A DNA stretch of 64,000 nt from Candidatus Methanimicrococcus odontotermitis (GTDB lineage Archaea > Halobacteriota > Methanosarcinia > Methanosarcinales > Methanosarcinaceae): assembly GCA_031286065.1 (NCBI GenBank), contig JAITUZ010000035.1:1-64000 (forward strand), read 5' to 3'. Each line of letters opens with the position of its first letter. Within the stretch, counting starts at the first letter, position 1. Position numbers and translations under genes: made by a program. Below the pieces are notes generated by a model. It worked only from the letters and a program-made list of their open reading frames with translations. It ran no database searches and was not told where the DNA came from. Below, one piece after another: positions 17,241 through 46,142 of this stretch.

Positions 17241-20200
17241 TCAAACTTCAGCGTTCAAATATTCGTCTTCTTCATCTTTCTCCTTCTTTCTTCTGTAGGC
17301 GAAAGCAATGAATGCCGGCAGGATGAATAACAGAATCGAGATCCATAAAACACGGATTTCTTTTTCCATTGCCTGCATCGGATCTTCCGTTCGGCCGTCA
17401 TCGACATTGTTCTCCGGGCTCGTCTCCGTTTCCTGAATCGCCGTCACATTTTCTTCAGCGGACTCGTTTTCTTTAACAACCGCATTTCCGATACCGCCGC
17501 CGAAACCGCTACCGTTATGTGTTTCGGGCGTCCACTTGGCGTAGAGGGTCATGTCATCGGTGACGATATCCGCGTCGAAATCCCATGAATTGACGCATTC
17601 CGATTCATTGAACCATCCTCCAAAGATGAATCCGGTTTTCGAAGGCGGCGCCGGTTCCGTAATGAGCGAATCCTGCGCTGCGTTCGTGATGCTTATAACG
17701 GGCGTTCCGCCCTGCGAGTCGAATCGGACTGTTATCGTTTTGGACAATATGCCAAAACCCTTCAGCACAGCAGGCTCCGTCCAGGTGAGATTGACGGGAA
17801 GCTTATTCGTTTCGCCGAAAATATTGTTCGGGTGGCTGCTGCCGGTTCGGCCGTCCGGATAATCCATTTTCAGAACAAGACTCGGGTTTTGGACACTTAA
17901 CAGCGGGATTTTGAATGTATAAACACCGTTTTCATCCGTCTGTCCGGAAGCGGCCTCTGAGCCTTCATAATACGCCTTTATGATCACGTTTGCGGTTTCT
18001 TCGCCGGCATCTTTCTCCCCATTATCGTTGAAGTCTGTAAAGACGGCTCCGGTAATATTGCCGTGCATGTGTTGGGATCCGATTCCGGGAATATCCTTTA
18101 CAGCCTGTTTGCCTCCTTCATTCGCGGTCAGCATCACGAATGCGTTTTTCGGCAAAGTCAGCTCATCTCCGGACAGGACCGCATCGGCCGCATCGACTCC
18201 GGCGAATCCGAAGGTTCCGATTTCGGAGTCAGCGGACCGGATATATGACACGCCGGCGGAATAATCCGTTGCCGGTGAAACTTCCGTCAAGGCTTTCTTT
18301 TCAGAAGTTGCCGCTTCGTATAATCCTGAGGTTGCGTTCAAAACCAGTTCGTCGGTGACGCGCTGTCCTTCCAGAACGGACGTGTAGAAGTTCCCGCGGA
18401 CTTGTGCGCCCTCACTCGTTTCAGCAATGAAATTCTCATAAGAAGCGTCAATTTCCACGCCGGATGTACTTGGTTTTCCTGGTTTTCCCAGCCAAGTGTT
18501 TTCATAGATCTGAGACGTACCGCTCGCAGTGAGTGCAAATCCTGCGGCGTAACCGTTTCCCATCGTAACGTTTGCGCGGATTTTGTCTTTGACATAGACG
18601 GCATTTCGTTTTATTTCTTTCCCGGCGTATGTAATCAAGCCGGAACTGTATGCGGTTCCGTAGTCTTCTCTTGTGTCTTTCGCTTCCGCGTATATGCTCC
18701 CGTTAACAAAAATGATGTTGCCGCTGATTACGGAATCCTCTTTCGCATTTGAAAAGCTGTAGATAAATCCCGAGGCAACGACAGCTTCAGGTCCCTTTGC
18801 CGTTATATTTTTGTTGACGTAGACGGCGTTTTCAGAAATCTGTGTCGGCGAGGTTTTTGAAACCGAGCCGCCGTATCCGTATGACTCCGCGTAGAACTCG
18901 CCGGCCGCCAATGTTTCGGCGTATATGCCGTGCGGTTCATTCTGTTCGTTAAACACTGTCATTTTATTGCCGCGGTGCTCTTTCATCTCCCCCAAGCTCA
19001 TGCCCTGCACAATGGCGTTCTTCTCGTCTGATGTCGAGCGCATGACGCCGTGAACTTCCATCAGGCTGTCGTACAGGGAAAAATCGCCGGAGATGCCCCA
19101 ACTGTGGCCGATTAAGTAGCTGCTGCCTTTTTGACAGTAAGAGGTCATGTTGCCGTAAACTTTCAGAGTGTCATTCGTGCTTTCACGAATTCCGGAATTC
19201 ATACCTGTTACGATCGACTGCGTTGTTCCGTAGGAGCCCGTTCCCGTCTGGTTCACGACAGCTTCCATATTTCCGTATATGGTCACAGCATTGTTCTTCG
19301 ATGTGCGCGGATAATTCTTATAATCGCCGTAGTGGTTTCCGACACCGCCTGTTATGAAAACCTTGGTTGGCGCTTCTGCTGTCATATTTCCTCTGATGAT
19401 AACACTGTTGTTGATGAATTCAGCGCCTTTGTTGTATATCATATGCGAATTGGAAACATTGACCAGTCCGGTGATTAACGCGCCCTGACCGGGGGCCGGC
19501 ACTCCTTTTTCATGGAGGACGGCTGTTATGTTGCCGCCGACATTGACGGCCGAATCCTTCAAATGGGATCCGTATTCAGAAATGCCGCACACATTCGCGT
19601 AGCCGTTGGCATTGTTGTCAGGACCGCCGCGAAGTTGACCGTCGGCAACAATGTCTCCTGCTACATTCACAGTAATGTTGCTTGCTCGGCTTGCGAATTG
19701 AGCGTAACCGGCAACATCTGATATCCATTGACTTGTTCCGTCTATCCTCTCGTAGTTCAGGGTAATGTTGTCCGCCAAAACGCCGAATCCGACCGCGATG
19801 GTCAAACCGTTCACAAAACCGATCCATTGGCCCAAATTTTCCGGTGTTTTTCCTGAAACGTAGCCGAGGGTTTTTGCGGATATTTCAATATCCTGCAGAA
19901 TGGTTTCTTCATAGACGGCTTGACCGTCATCGTAAATAATACTGCCGTTGTCGTCTGTTTTCGGGATTGATTCAATTCTTTCGGCAAATCCGCTCGCTCG
20001 GGCGCACAGTTCGTCTTCCGGCCGATACAGGCGGTAGTCTGCAATAATATCTCCTTCCACTTCGATTTTAATATTTTCCAGGTCGCAGAACTTAATGTTA
20101 TCATTGACGAACGGCGACACCTTCACATCGCCGGTGTGCGTGCCGTCTCCGACATATTCAACGGTCAGATCTTTCACAAAAAGACGGTCGTTCTTTGTGG

Positions 20201-20810
20201 TGTTGTGGATATCGTTAATACGGTTTAAGAGAGGTCTGGCCGGCTCGGGCGTATCTGCGATGACTGTTATTTTTTTGTTGTTTCCATCAATGTTATTGTA
20301 AAGCGTTCCGGCTTTTCCATGATATTGATATTTAAAATGAGTGCGGCTCAGCTCGCTGTCGTATACGGTGAAGTCATCCATCAGTTTATACGTTTTTATG
20401 ACCCGTTTTCCGCCGTCCGTTTCTTTGGTTCCGAGCGCATTCAGTATTTCATCCAAAAGCTGCTGTTTTGTCGTAATCTCAACGACAGTCGGATTCCCGT
20501 ATATTTCATTCTCCGCGTCAATTAAAGGCATCCGGAACTGCTGAACTTCAAACGAACTCGCCGATTCAGGGTTTGCTTCGGTGAGTTCGTTTGATTCGGC
20601 GAATTCATTTGCTTCGATGAATTCGTTCGATTCAGCCGGTATCTCCGGCATTTCCGGTCCGGTTTCATCCGATTCTGTCCGTTCGATATTTTCGCGCGGG
20701 AAATATTCTATTTCCGGCGTATTCTCTTCAGCGGCCGCTATTCCGCTGAATGCCGAGCTGATAATAAGCAGTATTATCAGTAAATGCGTCTGTTTTTTTA
20801 ATTGTTTCAT
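17241..20810 (-). CDS. Very large surface protein: beta-helix, SdrD-B/Cna-like domain, InlB repeat, membrane anchor
   Basis: A 1189-residue exported protein. Order of parts: signal peptide (1-27); a short acidic repeat region with NEF/NEL and EAN units (about 58-85); a long stretch (about 110-830) of repeating units such as NNSVIIRGNMTAEAP and NAVYVNKNITAKGPEA, which would fold as a beta-helix; a prealbumin-like domain starting GAVFTDFNDNGEKDAGEE (about 930-1010), similar to SdrD-B domains; an InlB B-repeat (VRFDSQGGTPVISI to FGGWFNESECVNSWDFD, about 1025-1095); and a transmembrane helix followed by RRKKEKDEEDE. It is probably an adhesin or cell-surface scaffold. AGGGT precedes the start. InlB and SdrD-B modules are widespread in gut Firmicutes, so exchange with gut bacteria is plausible. 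Confidence 0.82.
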   Translation of the reverse strand: MKQLKKQTHLLIILLIISSAFSGIAAAEENTPEIEYFPRENIERTESDETGPEMPEIPAESNEFIEANEFAESNELTEANPESASSFEVQQFRMPLIDAENEIYGNPTVVEITTKQQLLDEILNALGTKETDGGKRVIKTYKLMDDFTVYDSELSRTHFKYQYHGKAGTLYNNIDGNNKKITVIADTPEPARPLLNRINDIHNTTKNDRLFVKDLTVEYVGDGTHTGDVKVSPFVNDNIKFCDLENIKIEVEGDIIADYRLYRPEDELCARASGFAERIESIPKTDDNGSIIYDDGQAVYEETILQDIEISAKTLGYVSGKTPENLGQWIGFVNGLTIAVGFGVLADNITLNYERIDGTSQWISDVAGYAQFASRASNITVNVAGDIVADGQLRGGPDNNANGYANVCGISEYGSHLKDSAVNVGGNITAVLHEKGVPAPGQGALITGLVNVSNSHMIYNKGAEFINNSVIIRGNMTAEAPTKVFITGGVGNHYGDYKNYPRTSKNNAVTIYGNMEAVVNQTGTGSYGTTQSIVTGMNSGIRESTNDTLKVYGNMTSYCQKGSSYLIGHSWGISGDFSLYDSLMEVHGVMRSTSDEKNAIVQGMSLGEMKEHRGNKMTVFNEQNEPHGIYAETLAAGEFYAESYGYGGSVSKTSPTQISENAVYVNKNITAKGPEAVVASGFIYSFSNAKEDSVISGNIIFVNGSIYAEAKDTREDYGTAYSSGLITYAGKEIKRNAVYVKDKIRANVTMGNGYAAGFALTASGTSQIYENTWLGKPGKPSTSGVEIDASYENFIAETSEGAQVRGNFYTSVLEGQRVTDELVLNATSGLYEAATSEKKALTEVSPATDYSAGVSYIRSADSEIGTFGFAGVDAADAVLSGDELTLPKNAFVMLTANEGGKQAVKDIPGIGSQHMHGNITGAVFTDFNDNGEKDAGEETANVIIKAYYEGSEAASGQTDENGVYTFKIPLLSVQNPSLVLKMDYPDGRTGSSHPNNIFGETNKLPVNLTWTEPAVLKGFGILSKTITVRFDSQGGTPVISITNAAQDSLITEPAPPSKTGFIFGGWFNESECVNSWDFDADIVTDDMTLYAKWTPETHNGSGFGGGIGNAVVKENESAEENVTAIQETETSPENNVDDGRTEDPMQAMEKEIRVLWISILLFILPAFIAFAYRRKKEKDEEDEYLNAEV

Positions 20811-37662: not shown

Positions 37663-40506
37663 TCACCAATCGTCATCATCTGCCGGACTGTAGTCATCGC
37701 TCAGATATTCGCCGTCTTCTTCGGGCATGCAGCTTGTTTCCAGCGGCGTTTTGCCGGCCGCATCCGTTACATGTCTGTCGGCTCCCGCGTCAACCAGCTT
37801 TTGGACGTAATTATCTCCGTAGCGTCTCCGCTTTGTATTTTTGCTCGCGGAATGAAGGGCGGCATCCCCGTTTTTATTTTTAGCGTTAATGTCAACGCCC
37901 TTCTTTTTTAATTCGCTGAACATCTCTTCCAAATCAAAGGAGTCCGCAAAAGTCAGAAGTCCGTGATATAAAGTATCTCCGTCAGGATTTATATCAACCG
38001 GGGGAACGCCGCCGTAAAGCATGGATTGTATTGAAGATTCGCAGTTGAAATACAAGTCGCGGTCATCTTCATAATTCGGCGTGATACTGATAAGATATCC
38101 TAACGCGTTGTATCCGCCGTTGTCTTTATGCGCGGGGTCGATGCCGTAGTTTACCAGTTCTTTGAATACTTCGTCTCCGCCGTTATATGAAAGGCAGAAA
38201 TAAAATAACGGCGTCCGGCCGAATTTATCGGTGACATCGGCTTTTGCGCCCGCTTTGCGCAGCAAATCCAAAGCCTCTCTTATTAAATGCGGATAAGTTT
38301 GCTTGACAATACAATGCAAAGGCGTTTGCCCGTCTTCATCCGCCGTGTTCGGGTCAGCCTTTACTTTCAACAGTTTTTCAATTATTACCGGCTTGATTTG
38401 TTCTTCTTTGCAGGCGGCGAGTAGTTTCTTGTCTAATTCAGCCTGTTCTTCGGGCGTTTTGGCTTCATTGTACAAAGAAGGCAAGTCTTTGCAAACGTTT
38501 TTCATATATTCCCATTTCTCAAAACGGCTTTCAAATTCTGCCAATTTTTCGGCGGGCGTTTCCCCGTTATGGTCGATCTTGTCCTTTTTCTTCGGGTCTT
38601 TCATGACCTCTTTGAGCTGTTCCATGTGCGGCCGAACCAATTCGCTGTAATCGGCGATGAATTCAAGAGGCGTGCGTCCTTCATTGTCTGTATTTTGAAG
38701 CGGAACTTTGTATTCTTCTACCAGCCGCTTCACGTTTTTCAAAGACAAACACCTCAATGCGTCATGCAATGCTGTCGGGATTTTGTTCGGGTCGGCGCCT
38801 TTTTCCAGCAGCAGTTCAAAAGTGCTGTCATGATAATAAATTCCCCGGCTCAATATGCTGCTTCCGTTTCTGTCAACGGTTTCGTTGATGTCAAATCCTC
38901 TCGATTTGAAATGATTCATCATTTGAGGCAAATCAAGCGCAAACGCGGTCATAATAAGAGAAAAATCCGTAATGTCAACATCCGCGCCGCCGTTTATCAG
39001 CAGCATCACCATGTCATCCGTTTTTTTCATATAGTCTTTATCTTCTTTTTTGCCGGCATCTATCGTGTCAAAAAAGTAATCGATTGCGGTTCTGCCCTTG
39101 AAATTGTATTCGTTCAGAGGAATGCCGCCGTTTATCATTTTTCCAATCGCGCTGCCGTTCATGGCATCCAGTTCTTTGCAAAAAGCCTTGTATTCCGAAG
39201 CTTTAAATTTTTGAGATTTGGGCTTCTTCTTCTCTTCTTCTTCATCGTCGTCCTCTTCATCTTCTTCATCGTTTTCGTCTTCATCCTCCTCTTCATCTTC
39301 TTCATAATCGCCCTGTATTTCCTCAAACTCTTCAAAAGTCGGAATGTCGTCATCGGCGGTGATCAAATCAAGGAACGCTGCGCTGTTCGCGTCTAAACCC
39401 AGCGTGCTGAAAGAGTCCGCTAAGTCCCGAGCTGTCCATTCTGTTATGCTGCTGTTGTCATAGTATTCGACCAGTTCGCGCCCGCGCTTAACGGCGGCTT
39501 TAAAGAGCGCTTCTGTAAATCCGTCATCTTCAAGGGCGTCTTCCAATCCGATTTCCATTAAAAACATCAGTTCTTCCTGCAAATGTTGGTTGTCGCGCAT
39601 GGTCAATTGAGCGGCGATGAGTTCCATCACTCGCGGGTCATTTTTATCAAATCCGTATTTTTCAAACAAAGACGGAATGTGCATCACTTCACCGTAGCGG
39701 TCATAATACCAGCTCACGCTGTCTTCCAAATAATTACAGTAATCGATGTAGTTGCGCAAATATTTGACATCTTTCATCGCCAGCTGAAAAGCGGCTTCCG
39801 AACCGAACGGCGTTTCTTCATTTTTACCTTTAACGCCGTCTTCTTGATTCACTCGGTTCGTTTCTTCGATAAATTTGATGACCAAAGGCACTAAATCATC
39901 ATGTTTCAACGCTTCACGGTAAATGATGGCTTCATTTTGGTATGTTTCAATATCGTCCTCTTCGTATTCGGCGAATTGACCGTCTTCATCAATATAACCG
40001 TAGCTTATACCGTAATTATCGTTGACGGCATTGATAAATTCATCAAAGTTTTCGAGCTGCCATTCCAATAGTCTTTTTAAAGAATCATGGTCATTAGTGT
40101 CAACCGTGAATTCCATTGTTTCCAAATCGAATTCTTCACGTTCTCCGCTTTCATTTTTTAAAGCTCTCATCGCTTCTTTTCGGGCGTTTTTCAAAAGGAC
40201 GGTATCGGTGAAGCCCATCAGTTTGTAGCGAAGCAGTATGACAGATTCCAATTCGTCGACTGTCGGATGATCGGGATCTTCAAAAGTTTGTTCGGCGGCT
40301 AAATGAAATCCGTTTTTTTCTTGCTCTTTGGTCAATATTTCCAAATGTTTTTTCAATTCTTCCAATGAGCTGAACTGAATCTCTTCTTCGTTTTCATCGC
40401 CGCTTGCAATAATTTTCAAGTTCAGGCTTTCGTCATACTCGGCCATCCAAATTTCCGGACTGCCCCCTTGTTTGTGATAGGTTACTCGCGTTAACATAGT
40501 GATCAT
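37663..40506 (-). CDS. Large ankyrin-repeat protein with acidic linker
   Basis: A 947-residue protein without signal peptide, probably cytoplasmic. Residues 1-390 have no recognised domain (acidic, helical). About 395-435 is an extremely acidic linker of Asp/Glu followed by KKKPKSQK. From about 480 to 930 there are some eight or nine ankyrin units, for example EDGQTPLHCIVKQTYPHLI, KFGRTPLFYFCLSYNGGDEV, KNGDAALHSASKNTKRRRYG and AAGKTPLETSC. The repeats fit protein-protein binding; the partner is unknown. Such large ankyrin proteins are more usual in host-associated microbes. The gene is convergent with the lipoprotein gene. Confidence 0.78.
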   Translation of the reverse strand: MITMLTRVTYHKQGGSPEIWMAEYDESLNLKIIASGDENEEEIQFSSLEELKKHLEILTKEQEKNGFHLAAEQTFEDPDHPTVDELESVILLRYKLMGFTDTVLLKNARKEAMRALKNESGEREEFDLETMEFTVDTNDHDSLKRLLEWQLENFDEFINAVNDNYGISYGYIDEDGQFAEYEEDDIETYQNEAIIYREALKHDDLVPLVIKFIEETNRVNQEDGVKGKNEETPFGSEAAFQLAMKDVKYLRNYIDYCNYLEDSVSWYYDRYGEVMHIPSLFEKYGFDKNDPRVMELIAAQLTMRDNQHLQEELMFLMEIGLEDALEDDGFTEALFKAAVKRGRELVEYYDNSSITEWTARDLADSFSTLGLDANSAAFLDLITADDDIPTFEEFEEIQGDYEEDEEEDEDENDEEDEEDDDEEEEKKKPKSQKFKASEYKAFCKELDAMNGSAIGKMINGGIPLNEYNFKGRTAIDYFFDTIDAGKKEDKDYMKKTDDMVMLLINGGADVDITDFSLIMTAFALDLPQMMNHFKSRGFDINETVDRNGSSILSRGIYYHDSTFELLLEKGADPNKIPTALHDALRCLSLKNVKRLVEEYKVPLQNTDNEGRTPLEFIADYSELVRPHMEQLKEVMKDPKKKDKIDHNGETPAEKLAEFESRFEKWEYMKNVCKDLPSLYNEAKTPEEQAELDKKLLAACKEEQIKPVIIEKLLKVKADPNTADEDGQTPLHCIVKQTYPHLIREALDLLRKAGAKADVTDKFGRTPLFYFCLSYNGGDEVFKELVNYGIDPAHKDNGGYNALGYLISITPNYEDDRDLYFNCESSIQSMLYGGVPPVDINPDGDTLYHGLLTFADSFDLEEMFSELKKKGVDINAKNKNGDAALHSASKNTKRRRYGDNYVQKLVDAGADRHVTDAAGKTPLETSCMPEEDGEYLSDDYSPADDDDW

Positions 40507-43583: not shown

Positions 43584-44786
43584 ATGAAAATAACCCGAAA
43601 AGTTTTAGCAGTGTTATTCGCAATGTTGTTCGTGGCGGCGCTCGCGCCCGTAACATCATTGGCGGCGGATCAAATTCCGGCAGTTGATTTTGTTATTACA
43701 GCTCCAAGAAATAACCTGCCGATGGAAACGGATTTAGATTACCTTTATAATTTCGATCATCCTTATTTCTCTGTCAATGGTGTAAACTGGTTTGACGGAC
43801 ACGGAAATGTAGTAACCCCCTTCTTTCAAGAGGGCAAATACACTCTCCAACTCACTCTGATCGCGAAAGATCCGGATGCTTATGATTTTTCCTACTATAA
43901 AGGAAATAACTCCAGGTTTGCAGAGTTCACAGTGAACGGGCTTCCTATGCGTGAATGTGAGATGGTCGATGATCCCGATTCCGCTGATCAGTTAGGCATT
44001 GAGTTGGAGTTCCCCCGATTGATGGTGACCGGTCTCACTCTGGACAAAGAAGAACTTCCTCTTGAAACGGGCGGGGAGGGAACTTTGATTGCCACCCTGT
44101 TTTCGTCCGGCGAGATCGAGAATCCGGGAGTCATATGGACGAGCAGCGACCCGTCTGTCGCCACAGTGGACGCAAACGGCAAAGTGACCGGGGTCTTGGA
44201 GGGAACGGCTGTCATTACAGCGAAATCTGTTGACGGCGGCTATGAAGACACCTGCACAGTGACGACGATGACTGAAATCATAACCATTCAGTTTAATTCA
44301 AACGGCGGCACGATGATCGCGGATCTGGCGGGAGTGATTTCGGGCGGCATGATTACAGAGCCGGCAGCCCCCGTTAAACCCGGTTACACGTTCGGCGGAT
44401 GGTACACAGAAGCCGAATTGACGAACGCGTGGGATTTTGACGCGGATACTGTAACAGCAGATATCACACTGCACGCGAAATGGATCGAAAACAGCAGCGG
44501 CGGTTCGTCTTCCGGTTCCGGTACAGGCTTCGCAACAGTCGTTGATCCCGCGGATAATAATGTGAGCGCATCGTCTGCTGGCAGCGATAACAACACACCG
44601 CCGGCCGGCAGCGATAACAGCGCACAGCCGCAAGAAAACGATGACAGCAGCAGACCCCCCCCGGATGAGGATATCCTTGATGCGCCGCGGGCTGAAAATA
44701 AAATCAGTGCGGTCAAGTGGTTTATCGCAACGGCTGCGATCTTTCTTCTCTTTTAGTTTTTGATGTACGGCCGGCGGAAAAAATAA
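43584..44786 (+). CDS. Surface protein with Ig-like and InlB domains; in-frame UAG in the membrane anchor (candidate pyrrolysine)
   Basis: An exported protein: signal peptide (1-28), an N-terminal domain, a BIG_2 Ig-like domain (about 142-222, with WTSSDPSVATVDANGKVTG), an InlB B-repeat (about 234-305, IQFNSNGGTM to FGGWYTEAELTNAWDFDAD), a Ser/Gly/Asn/Pro-rich linker, and a C-terminal membrane segment. A TAG at 44754-44756 (codon 391) cuts this helix after WFIATAAIFLLF. Reading through gives FLMYGRRKK and then TAA at 44784, completing a normal helix plus basic stop-transfer tail as in the neighbours. All other genes here stop at TAA or TGA. AGAAGGAG lies before the ATG at 43584. With UAG as stop, the product would be 390 residues with a stunted anchor. 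Confidence 0.75.
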
Positions 44787-44826
44787 GCGCGATTGAGCGG
44801 TAAGCGTCTCAAATAAGACAAAACAA

Positions 44827-44852
44827 ATATCATTTCAAATTTGAAATGATAT
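44827..44852. terminator. 26-bp perfect palindrome between convergent genes
   Basis: ATATCATTTCAAA and its exact complement TTTGAAATGATAT form a perfect inverted repeat without loop, between the surface protein gene and the convergent mmp10. It is placed to serve as a bidirectional terminator. Confidence 0.5.
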
Positions 44853-44897
44853 CTCATTTTTTATTTCGGCGGAATGAGTTTTTTCCACTCTTCTCCT

Positions 44898-46142
44898 TCA
44901 TTTTTTATTATCGGGCGGCAGTCCCAATGTATTGATCAGCTGAATCAATTCGGTAAACGCCTTAATTTCAAAATCCAGCAGCTCTTCTTTTGTCATGCTT
45001 GCCGACATTTCGCCGTCAATCGAAAGTGTATCGGGGCCGCGCCGAACGATTCGTTTTGATTTTTCGGGAATCAGGATTTCTTTGATATCTCTTTCATGGA
45101 CAAAACAGCGCCCCGGGATGAAAATCGTTTCTTTCAATGCGCTTTGATCCAATTTTTTCAAATCATCGGCGGTGATCAAGCATCCGATGTCTTTTTCGGC
45201 CGCGGCGACATTTACGGCGCCGCCGAGTTTTTCAAAAATTTCAGATAAACGCGGGGCGGCGGCTTTTCCGGTAATGATTGTCGCTTCCATACGGATTTCC
45301 GGCAGCTTCGCCAGCGCCTCCGGCGCATTTCGAATCGCGAAAGGCGCGTCCAAAAGCGGGTCTTCCAGCGGCGTTCCCGATATTCGGATATTTTGGTGAT
45401 TTTTCGCTGCCGTCCGAACGATTTCAGCGAATTCTTCAATCGTATGCGAAACAACGCCCGAAATCACCGGTTCGTTTCCGAGAATCAGGCCGTTTTCCGT
45501 TTTGTTGGCAAAGCGCATCAAAAGAGCTCCTTTCGCGCCGGCTTTTTCAAGCCACGACAGCGTTTCATCCAAAACCGCGCCGTCGTTTGCTCCCGGAACA
45601 AGAACGATCGCCGCGTAAACATCGCAGAAGCGACAGAGCTCTTCAAAAACTTTAAGTGACATCTCGGGCGCAGGGTCGCGCATGTATTCCTTCCGAAGCG
45701 CAGGGTCGGACGCAAAAAGCGTGAAGTTGACTTCTTTTATTCCGGCGTCTTTTAAAAACGCGGCTTCCGTTCCGTTAAAACCTTTGCCGCTCGTATAGCC
45801 GATTTTTACGGGAAGACCGAAGTCTGAGAGAAAAGACAAAAGCGGCAGAAGTTCCGGATAACAGCTGATATCGCCGCCGCCGGTGATTACAAATCCTGAA
45901 ATGTCCGATTCTTTTGAACCGTAAATCTTGGCGGCGGTTTCATCCAAAACCTGCTTCATCGGCTTGAACCCGTGATGAGATTCGCGGACGCTTCGGGTGC
46001 AGTAATCGCATCCTTTGACGAACGGCGGACAATATTTGCAGCCGAGAGGCTCCGTTGAGCCGACTTTTTTAAAATAGCAGTATTTGCAAAATCCGCGGCA
46101 GTCCGTTCCCGGATTTCCGCCGACATCGATTAAGATTTCCAT
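44898..46142 (-). CDS. mmp10: MCR arginine methyltransferase, radical SAM methanogenesis marker 10
   Basis: A 414-residue radical SAM enzyme. The iron-sulfur ligands are Cys15, Cys19 and Cys22 in [14 protein letters not shown], and a second cysteine group follows ([14 protein letters not shown]). Further blocks are [20 protein letters not shown] and [13 protein letters not shown]. Mmp10 is a cobalamin-dependent methylase that installs 5-C-methyl-arginine in McrA; the target arginine is in the mcrA of this window. The C-terminal part (from about 290) is the Mmp10-specific domain. The ATG lies about 25 bases from a TATA-like AAATTATTAATATC and has no ribosome binding site, so the mRNA may be leaderless. 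It converges on the surface protein gene. Confidence 0.9.

Follow-up and report, generated by a model that had tools for sequence, protein, structure and literature searches.

The window (the whole stretch of 64,000 nucleotides that was analysed) carries on its forward strand a gene for an adhesin-like Big_2/Flg_new surface protein, which extends from 43584 to 44786 when one in-frame UAG is read as sense. The ATG start at 43584 is preceded by AGAAGGAG, and 390 codons lead in this frame from the ATG to the TAG at 44754-44756, which as residue 391 is probably pyrrolysine (Pyl), judging from the sequence, the pyl genes and the TAG census described below. Beyond the TAG the frame continues with nine codons for FLMYGRRKK (44757-44783), which complete the hydrophobic segment and add a basic stop-transfer tail, and closes at the TAA at 44784-44786, the presumed true stop. 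The initial annotation had placed the TAG in the middle of the C-terminal hydrophobic helix, followed by FLMYGRRKK and TAA, and both its coordinates and its description hold. The protein is arranged as signal peptide (judged from sequence), N-terminal domain (about residues 28-145), Big_2 (148-226), Flg_new/List_Bact_rpt (234-299), Ser/Gly/Asp-rich linker, TM anchor and RRKK. The hallmarks of a Flg_new adhesin-like protein, i.e., a signal peptide, PF09479, and a TM helix with a basic tail, are all present, the anchor being complete only with the UAG read through. A strong hairpin followed by a T-run at 44825-44862, between this gene and a convergent gene at 44898-46142, is a probable terminator. 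The idea of a dedicated RNA structure at the UAG itself was rejected, since the fold there is not significant (z -1.26) and the terminator-like hairpin after the stop was the only structure seen. Elsewhere in the window, 37663-40506 (-) encodes a 947-residue ankyrin-repeat protein, the archaeon being of a host-associated type.

The anchor was compared with those of other surface proteins. Cut at the UAG it has 12 uncharged residues with no basic residue after them; with the extension it has 18 uncharged residues plus RRKK. Sibling anchors from 21 surface or membrane proteins of the genus have 15-29 uncharged residues, then 1-5 basic ones. The nearest paralogue, a Flg_new surface protein at 17241-20810 (-) with an uninterrupted anchor (...FAYRRKKEK...), has an RRKK that aligns with that of the extension, so the earlier observation that the tail resembles sibling anchors stands. 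Its account of the neighbouring tails was right in that FIRRK ends the gene at 664-1611 and YRRKKEK occurs in the tail of 17241-20810, but in the latter DEEDEYLNAEV follows. An anchor-like tail, defined by a hydrophobic start, at least three K/R among the six residues that follow it and a length of at most 20 residues, occurred in 0/300 in-frame stretches downstream of real TAA or TGA stops and in 0.11% of an any-frame null; this definition was chosen after FLMYGRRKK had been seen, and the chance figures are indicative only. A rough sum of helix insertion energies gave a cost of 1.8-2.1 with Pyl treated as polar, like Gln or Lys, versus -1.1 for Leu. Pyl in mid-helix is not obviously favourable, and this points to tolerance rather than function.

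We counted stop codons in the window and in two genomes. The 51 gene models of the window ended in TAA (29), TGA (21) or TAG (1), and the one TAG belonged to the surface protein gene, confirming the earlier remark that all other annotated genes end in TAA or TGA. In sampled stretches covering about 42% of the source genome (730 kb), for which sample the counts hold, 549 gene models gave 293 TAA, 242 TGA and 14 TAG. Past the TAG, seven of these 14 models remain coding in composition over 112-972 codons; they comprise five methylamine methyltransferases, one CobN-like protein and one large surface protein. One model (L031) is short and probably spurious, and the other six, the surface gene at 43584 among them, have tails of 2-15 codons. 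After this inspection TAG accounts for at most six of the 549 stops, about 1%, whereas TGA, of the same base composition, accounts for about 44%. A sister genome (469 models, 680 kb) gave 296 TAA, 161 TGA and 12 TAG, only one of the 12 being short-tailed. Common use of TAG as a stop, which would have spoken against the earlier proposal, was not seen; with at most about 1% of genes ending in TAG, the cells have all but given up this codon for termination. The hallmark of a Pyl code, with TAG essentially unused for termination and internal to unrelated genes, is present.

The source genome is a draft assembly of 1.75 Mb in 59 contigs, 79% complete and 43% G+C; its size, its G+C content and its possession of Flg_new proteins are in keeping with the gut clade of Methanimicrococcus/Methanolapillus (PMC11362671, PMC9723798). 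A search for the pyl genes, whose lack would have undermined the Pyl reading, found them complete: tRNA-Pyl (CUA), PylS, PylB, PylC and PylD, all proteins above the NCBIfam cut-offs, with the N- and C-terminal parts of PylS fused. PylS was above cut-off in five of the six genus genomes, the sixth, without PylS, being 66% complete. The Pfam models MtmB, Dimeth_Pyl and MTTB match the genome's own methylamine methyltransferases across the UAG. The genome's own aRF1 is intact, with its NIKS, and may therefore still terminate translation at UAG. The idea of another release factor that had lost UAG recognition was discarded: there is one full-length aRF1 above cut-off, and the other matches (C41) are partial and below cut-off.

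The gene adjoining pylT (L004:10831-11667 (-), contig C4 of the source genome; weak squalene-cyclase-like match) also has a short UAG tail, the UAG lying at residue 274, five codons before the stop. A single TAG lies inside the match in 6/6 genus genomes, with 57-86% identity between species; the five genomes in which the gene end was read share a tail QL[A/T/P]A, then TAA or TGA, and diverge thereafter. In the family's other genera, homologues have sense codons at this place, e.g., ...SLSLITLHEYMSSQ. Comparison of these sequences shows that the UAG of this gene behaves as sense within the genus, and that it is conserved here and sense in other genera indicates that short UAG tails can be real.

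Long continuations were found in other exported proteins. A second surface protein of the source genome (L045:1162-3822 (+)), with a signal peptide, a C-terminal anchor and no Pfam match, has UAG at residue 123 followed by 763 residues that end in its own anchor. In the sister genome, three surface or exported proteins each contain one or two UAG codons in frame (L105:7232-11356 (-), L106:15304-17664 (+) and L064:1-3131 (-)), two of the proteins having GLUG and one being of another kind; the GLUG surface protein of L106 also has Flg_new. In that genome UAG lies also inside a class-III aminotransferase and an AMP-ligase; in the aminotransferase (L096:14822-15991 (-)) the UAG is residue 74, inside the Pfam domain. 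The CobN-like protein of the source genome (L088:6056-11473 (+)) has an in-frame UAG, a C-terminal TM segment and an RRK tail. Earlier work proposed a CobN homologue containing an amber codon, a proposal that was disputed (PMC1914089). Comparison of L088 with its sister L051 was not used as proof, since the two align poorly around the UAG.

The best reading is that the full-length anchored form is the main product of the 43584 gene. Probably the UAG is in effect sense, read as Pyl, read-through yields an anchored Big_2/Flg_new protein, and Pyl is a tolerated substitution. Translation would pass through the UAG and end at the TAA 10 codons further on, and the product would have an uncharged membrane segment of 18 residues, Pyl among them, with RRKK as its basic stop-transfer tail. 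The Pyl may have arisen by a change such as TTG (Leu) to TAG and been kept because the cell reads UAG efficiently. We infer Pyl at residue 391, the efficiency of read-through and the neutrality from sequence. The rarity of TAG stops suggests that read-through is more efficient than the 20-30% of M. acetivorans. Points against this reading are that the extension has only nine residues and that the paralogue's tail is its sole alignment, without an orthologue; the low reporter read-through in M. acetivorans, the insertion cost of a polar Pyl in mid-helix and the intact aRF1 also count against it. Pyl in the anchor, as the initial annotation had it, is favoured by the pyl genes, the rare TAG stops, the anchor-like tail and the other surface proteins with UAG; the special context that it attached to this anchor finds no support, the same recoding being found throughout in ordinary enzymes and large surface proteins. 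With UAG codons in other surface proteins of the genus as well, the 43584 case is one example of recoding across the genome rather than a switch of its own kind.

Other explanations were weighed against this one. The UAG could be ambiguous, giving a secreted or weakly anchored stump together with a read-through anchored form, with their ratio and the surface display following Pyl-tRNA supply. Such dual use is documented in Methanosarcina, where a reporter was read through at 20-30% and some species have a pylB that ends in TAG (PMC2933860). The M. acetivorans reporter values allow for a mixture of forms, aRF1 is present, and a stump of 12 residues falls short of a normal anchor; but TAG makes up at most about 1% of the genome's own stops, the codon has no specific RNA structure (fold z -1.26), and UAG occurs also within enzymes, for which a truncated form would have no use, which leaves ambiguity unlikely. 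That the UAG acts as a translational switch, the protein being released or poorly anchored when Pyl-tRNA is scarce and displayed when it is plentiful, would tie host adhesion to methylamine supply; this regulatory role is without specific support and we regard it as quite improbable. That surface display would depend on Pyl supply, as the initial annotation proposed, is not supported in that form; the methylamine methyltransferases that feed this type of methanogen require Pyl in any case.

That the protein truly ends at the UAG with a short anchor, FLMYGRRKK being a product of chance, is very improbable. Chance alone often places another in-frame stop within 10 codons after a stop, judging from the length distribution of downstream frames, and the 43584 protein has no orthologue, but the composition of the tail was matched in none of the 300 downstream frames, the 21 sibling anchors are longer and have basic tails, and TAG is hardly used as a stop in two genomes. 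A nonsense mutation in a dispensable surface gene, now a pseudogene, or a base error in the assembly could be imagined for a fast-evolving surface gene in a draft of 59 contigs and 79% completeness; yet the frame is otherwise intact with the single TAG as its sole interruption, and the pattern recurs in several surface genes and in enzymes of two genomes, making either extremely unlikely.

Among 112 family genomes no orthologue of the 43584 protein or of its N-terminal domain was found, only Flg_new/Big_2 repeats being matched; its anchor had no match in other genus genomes, and a GTDB contig scan gave only bacterial repeat matches. A partial literature search found no published case of Pyl in an adhesin-like surface anchor. 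On this reading Pyl decoding would reach beyond methyltransferases and scattered enzymes and include exported proteins of adhesin-like type in a gut-type genus of Methanosarcinaceae. Standard gene calling would shorten several surface proteins of the genus; with table 11 the 43584 protein loses its anchor and others lose hundreds of residues. The 43584 anchor may serve as a natural test of the tolerance of membrane helices for pyrrolysine, and the gene adjoining pylT is a conserved, testable Pyl candidate outside the methyltransferases.

Kivenson and colleagues reportedly described, by proteomics, an archaeal 'Pyl code' in which some archaea read all TAG as pyrrolysine. As here, TAG is nearly absent there as a stop and lies inside many unrelated genes; the present case differs in being inferred from sequence and in concerning a Methanimicrococcus-like genus. 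The Flg_new/GLUG adhesin-like proteins of Methanimicrococcus blatticola share the domain PF09479 and a presumed adhesion role, and amber or stop codons in them go unmentioned in the main text of that report (PMC9723798). For 'Ca. Methanomethylophilus alvus', with 1.6% TAG stops, 16 Pyl proteins other than methyltransferases have been predicted, a transporter among them; this archaeon belongs to another order and its table names no adhesin-like surface protein or anchor (PMC4153887). Thg1 of Methanosarcina acetivorans gained its UAG in one species and Pyl is not essential for its activity, in keeping with a neutral model like the one favoured here; unlike the 43584 protein it is no surface protein, and its case was shown experimentally (PMC2933860). 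The 43584 case joins these known or predicted Pyl proteins that are not methyltransferases.
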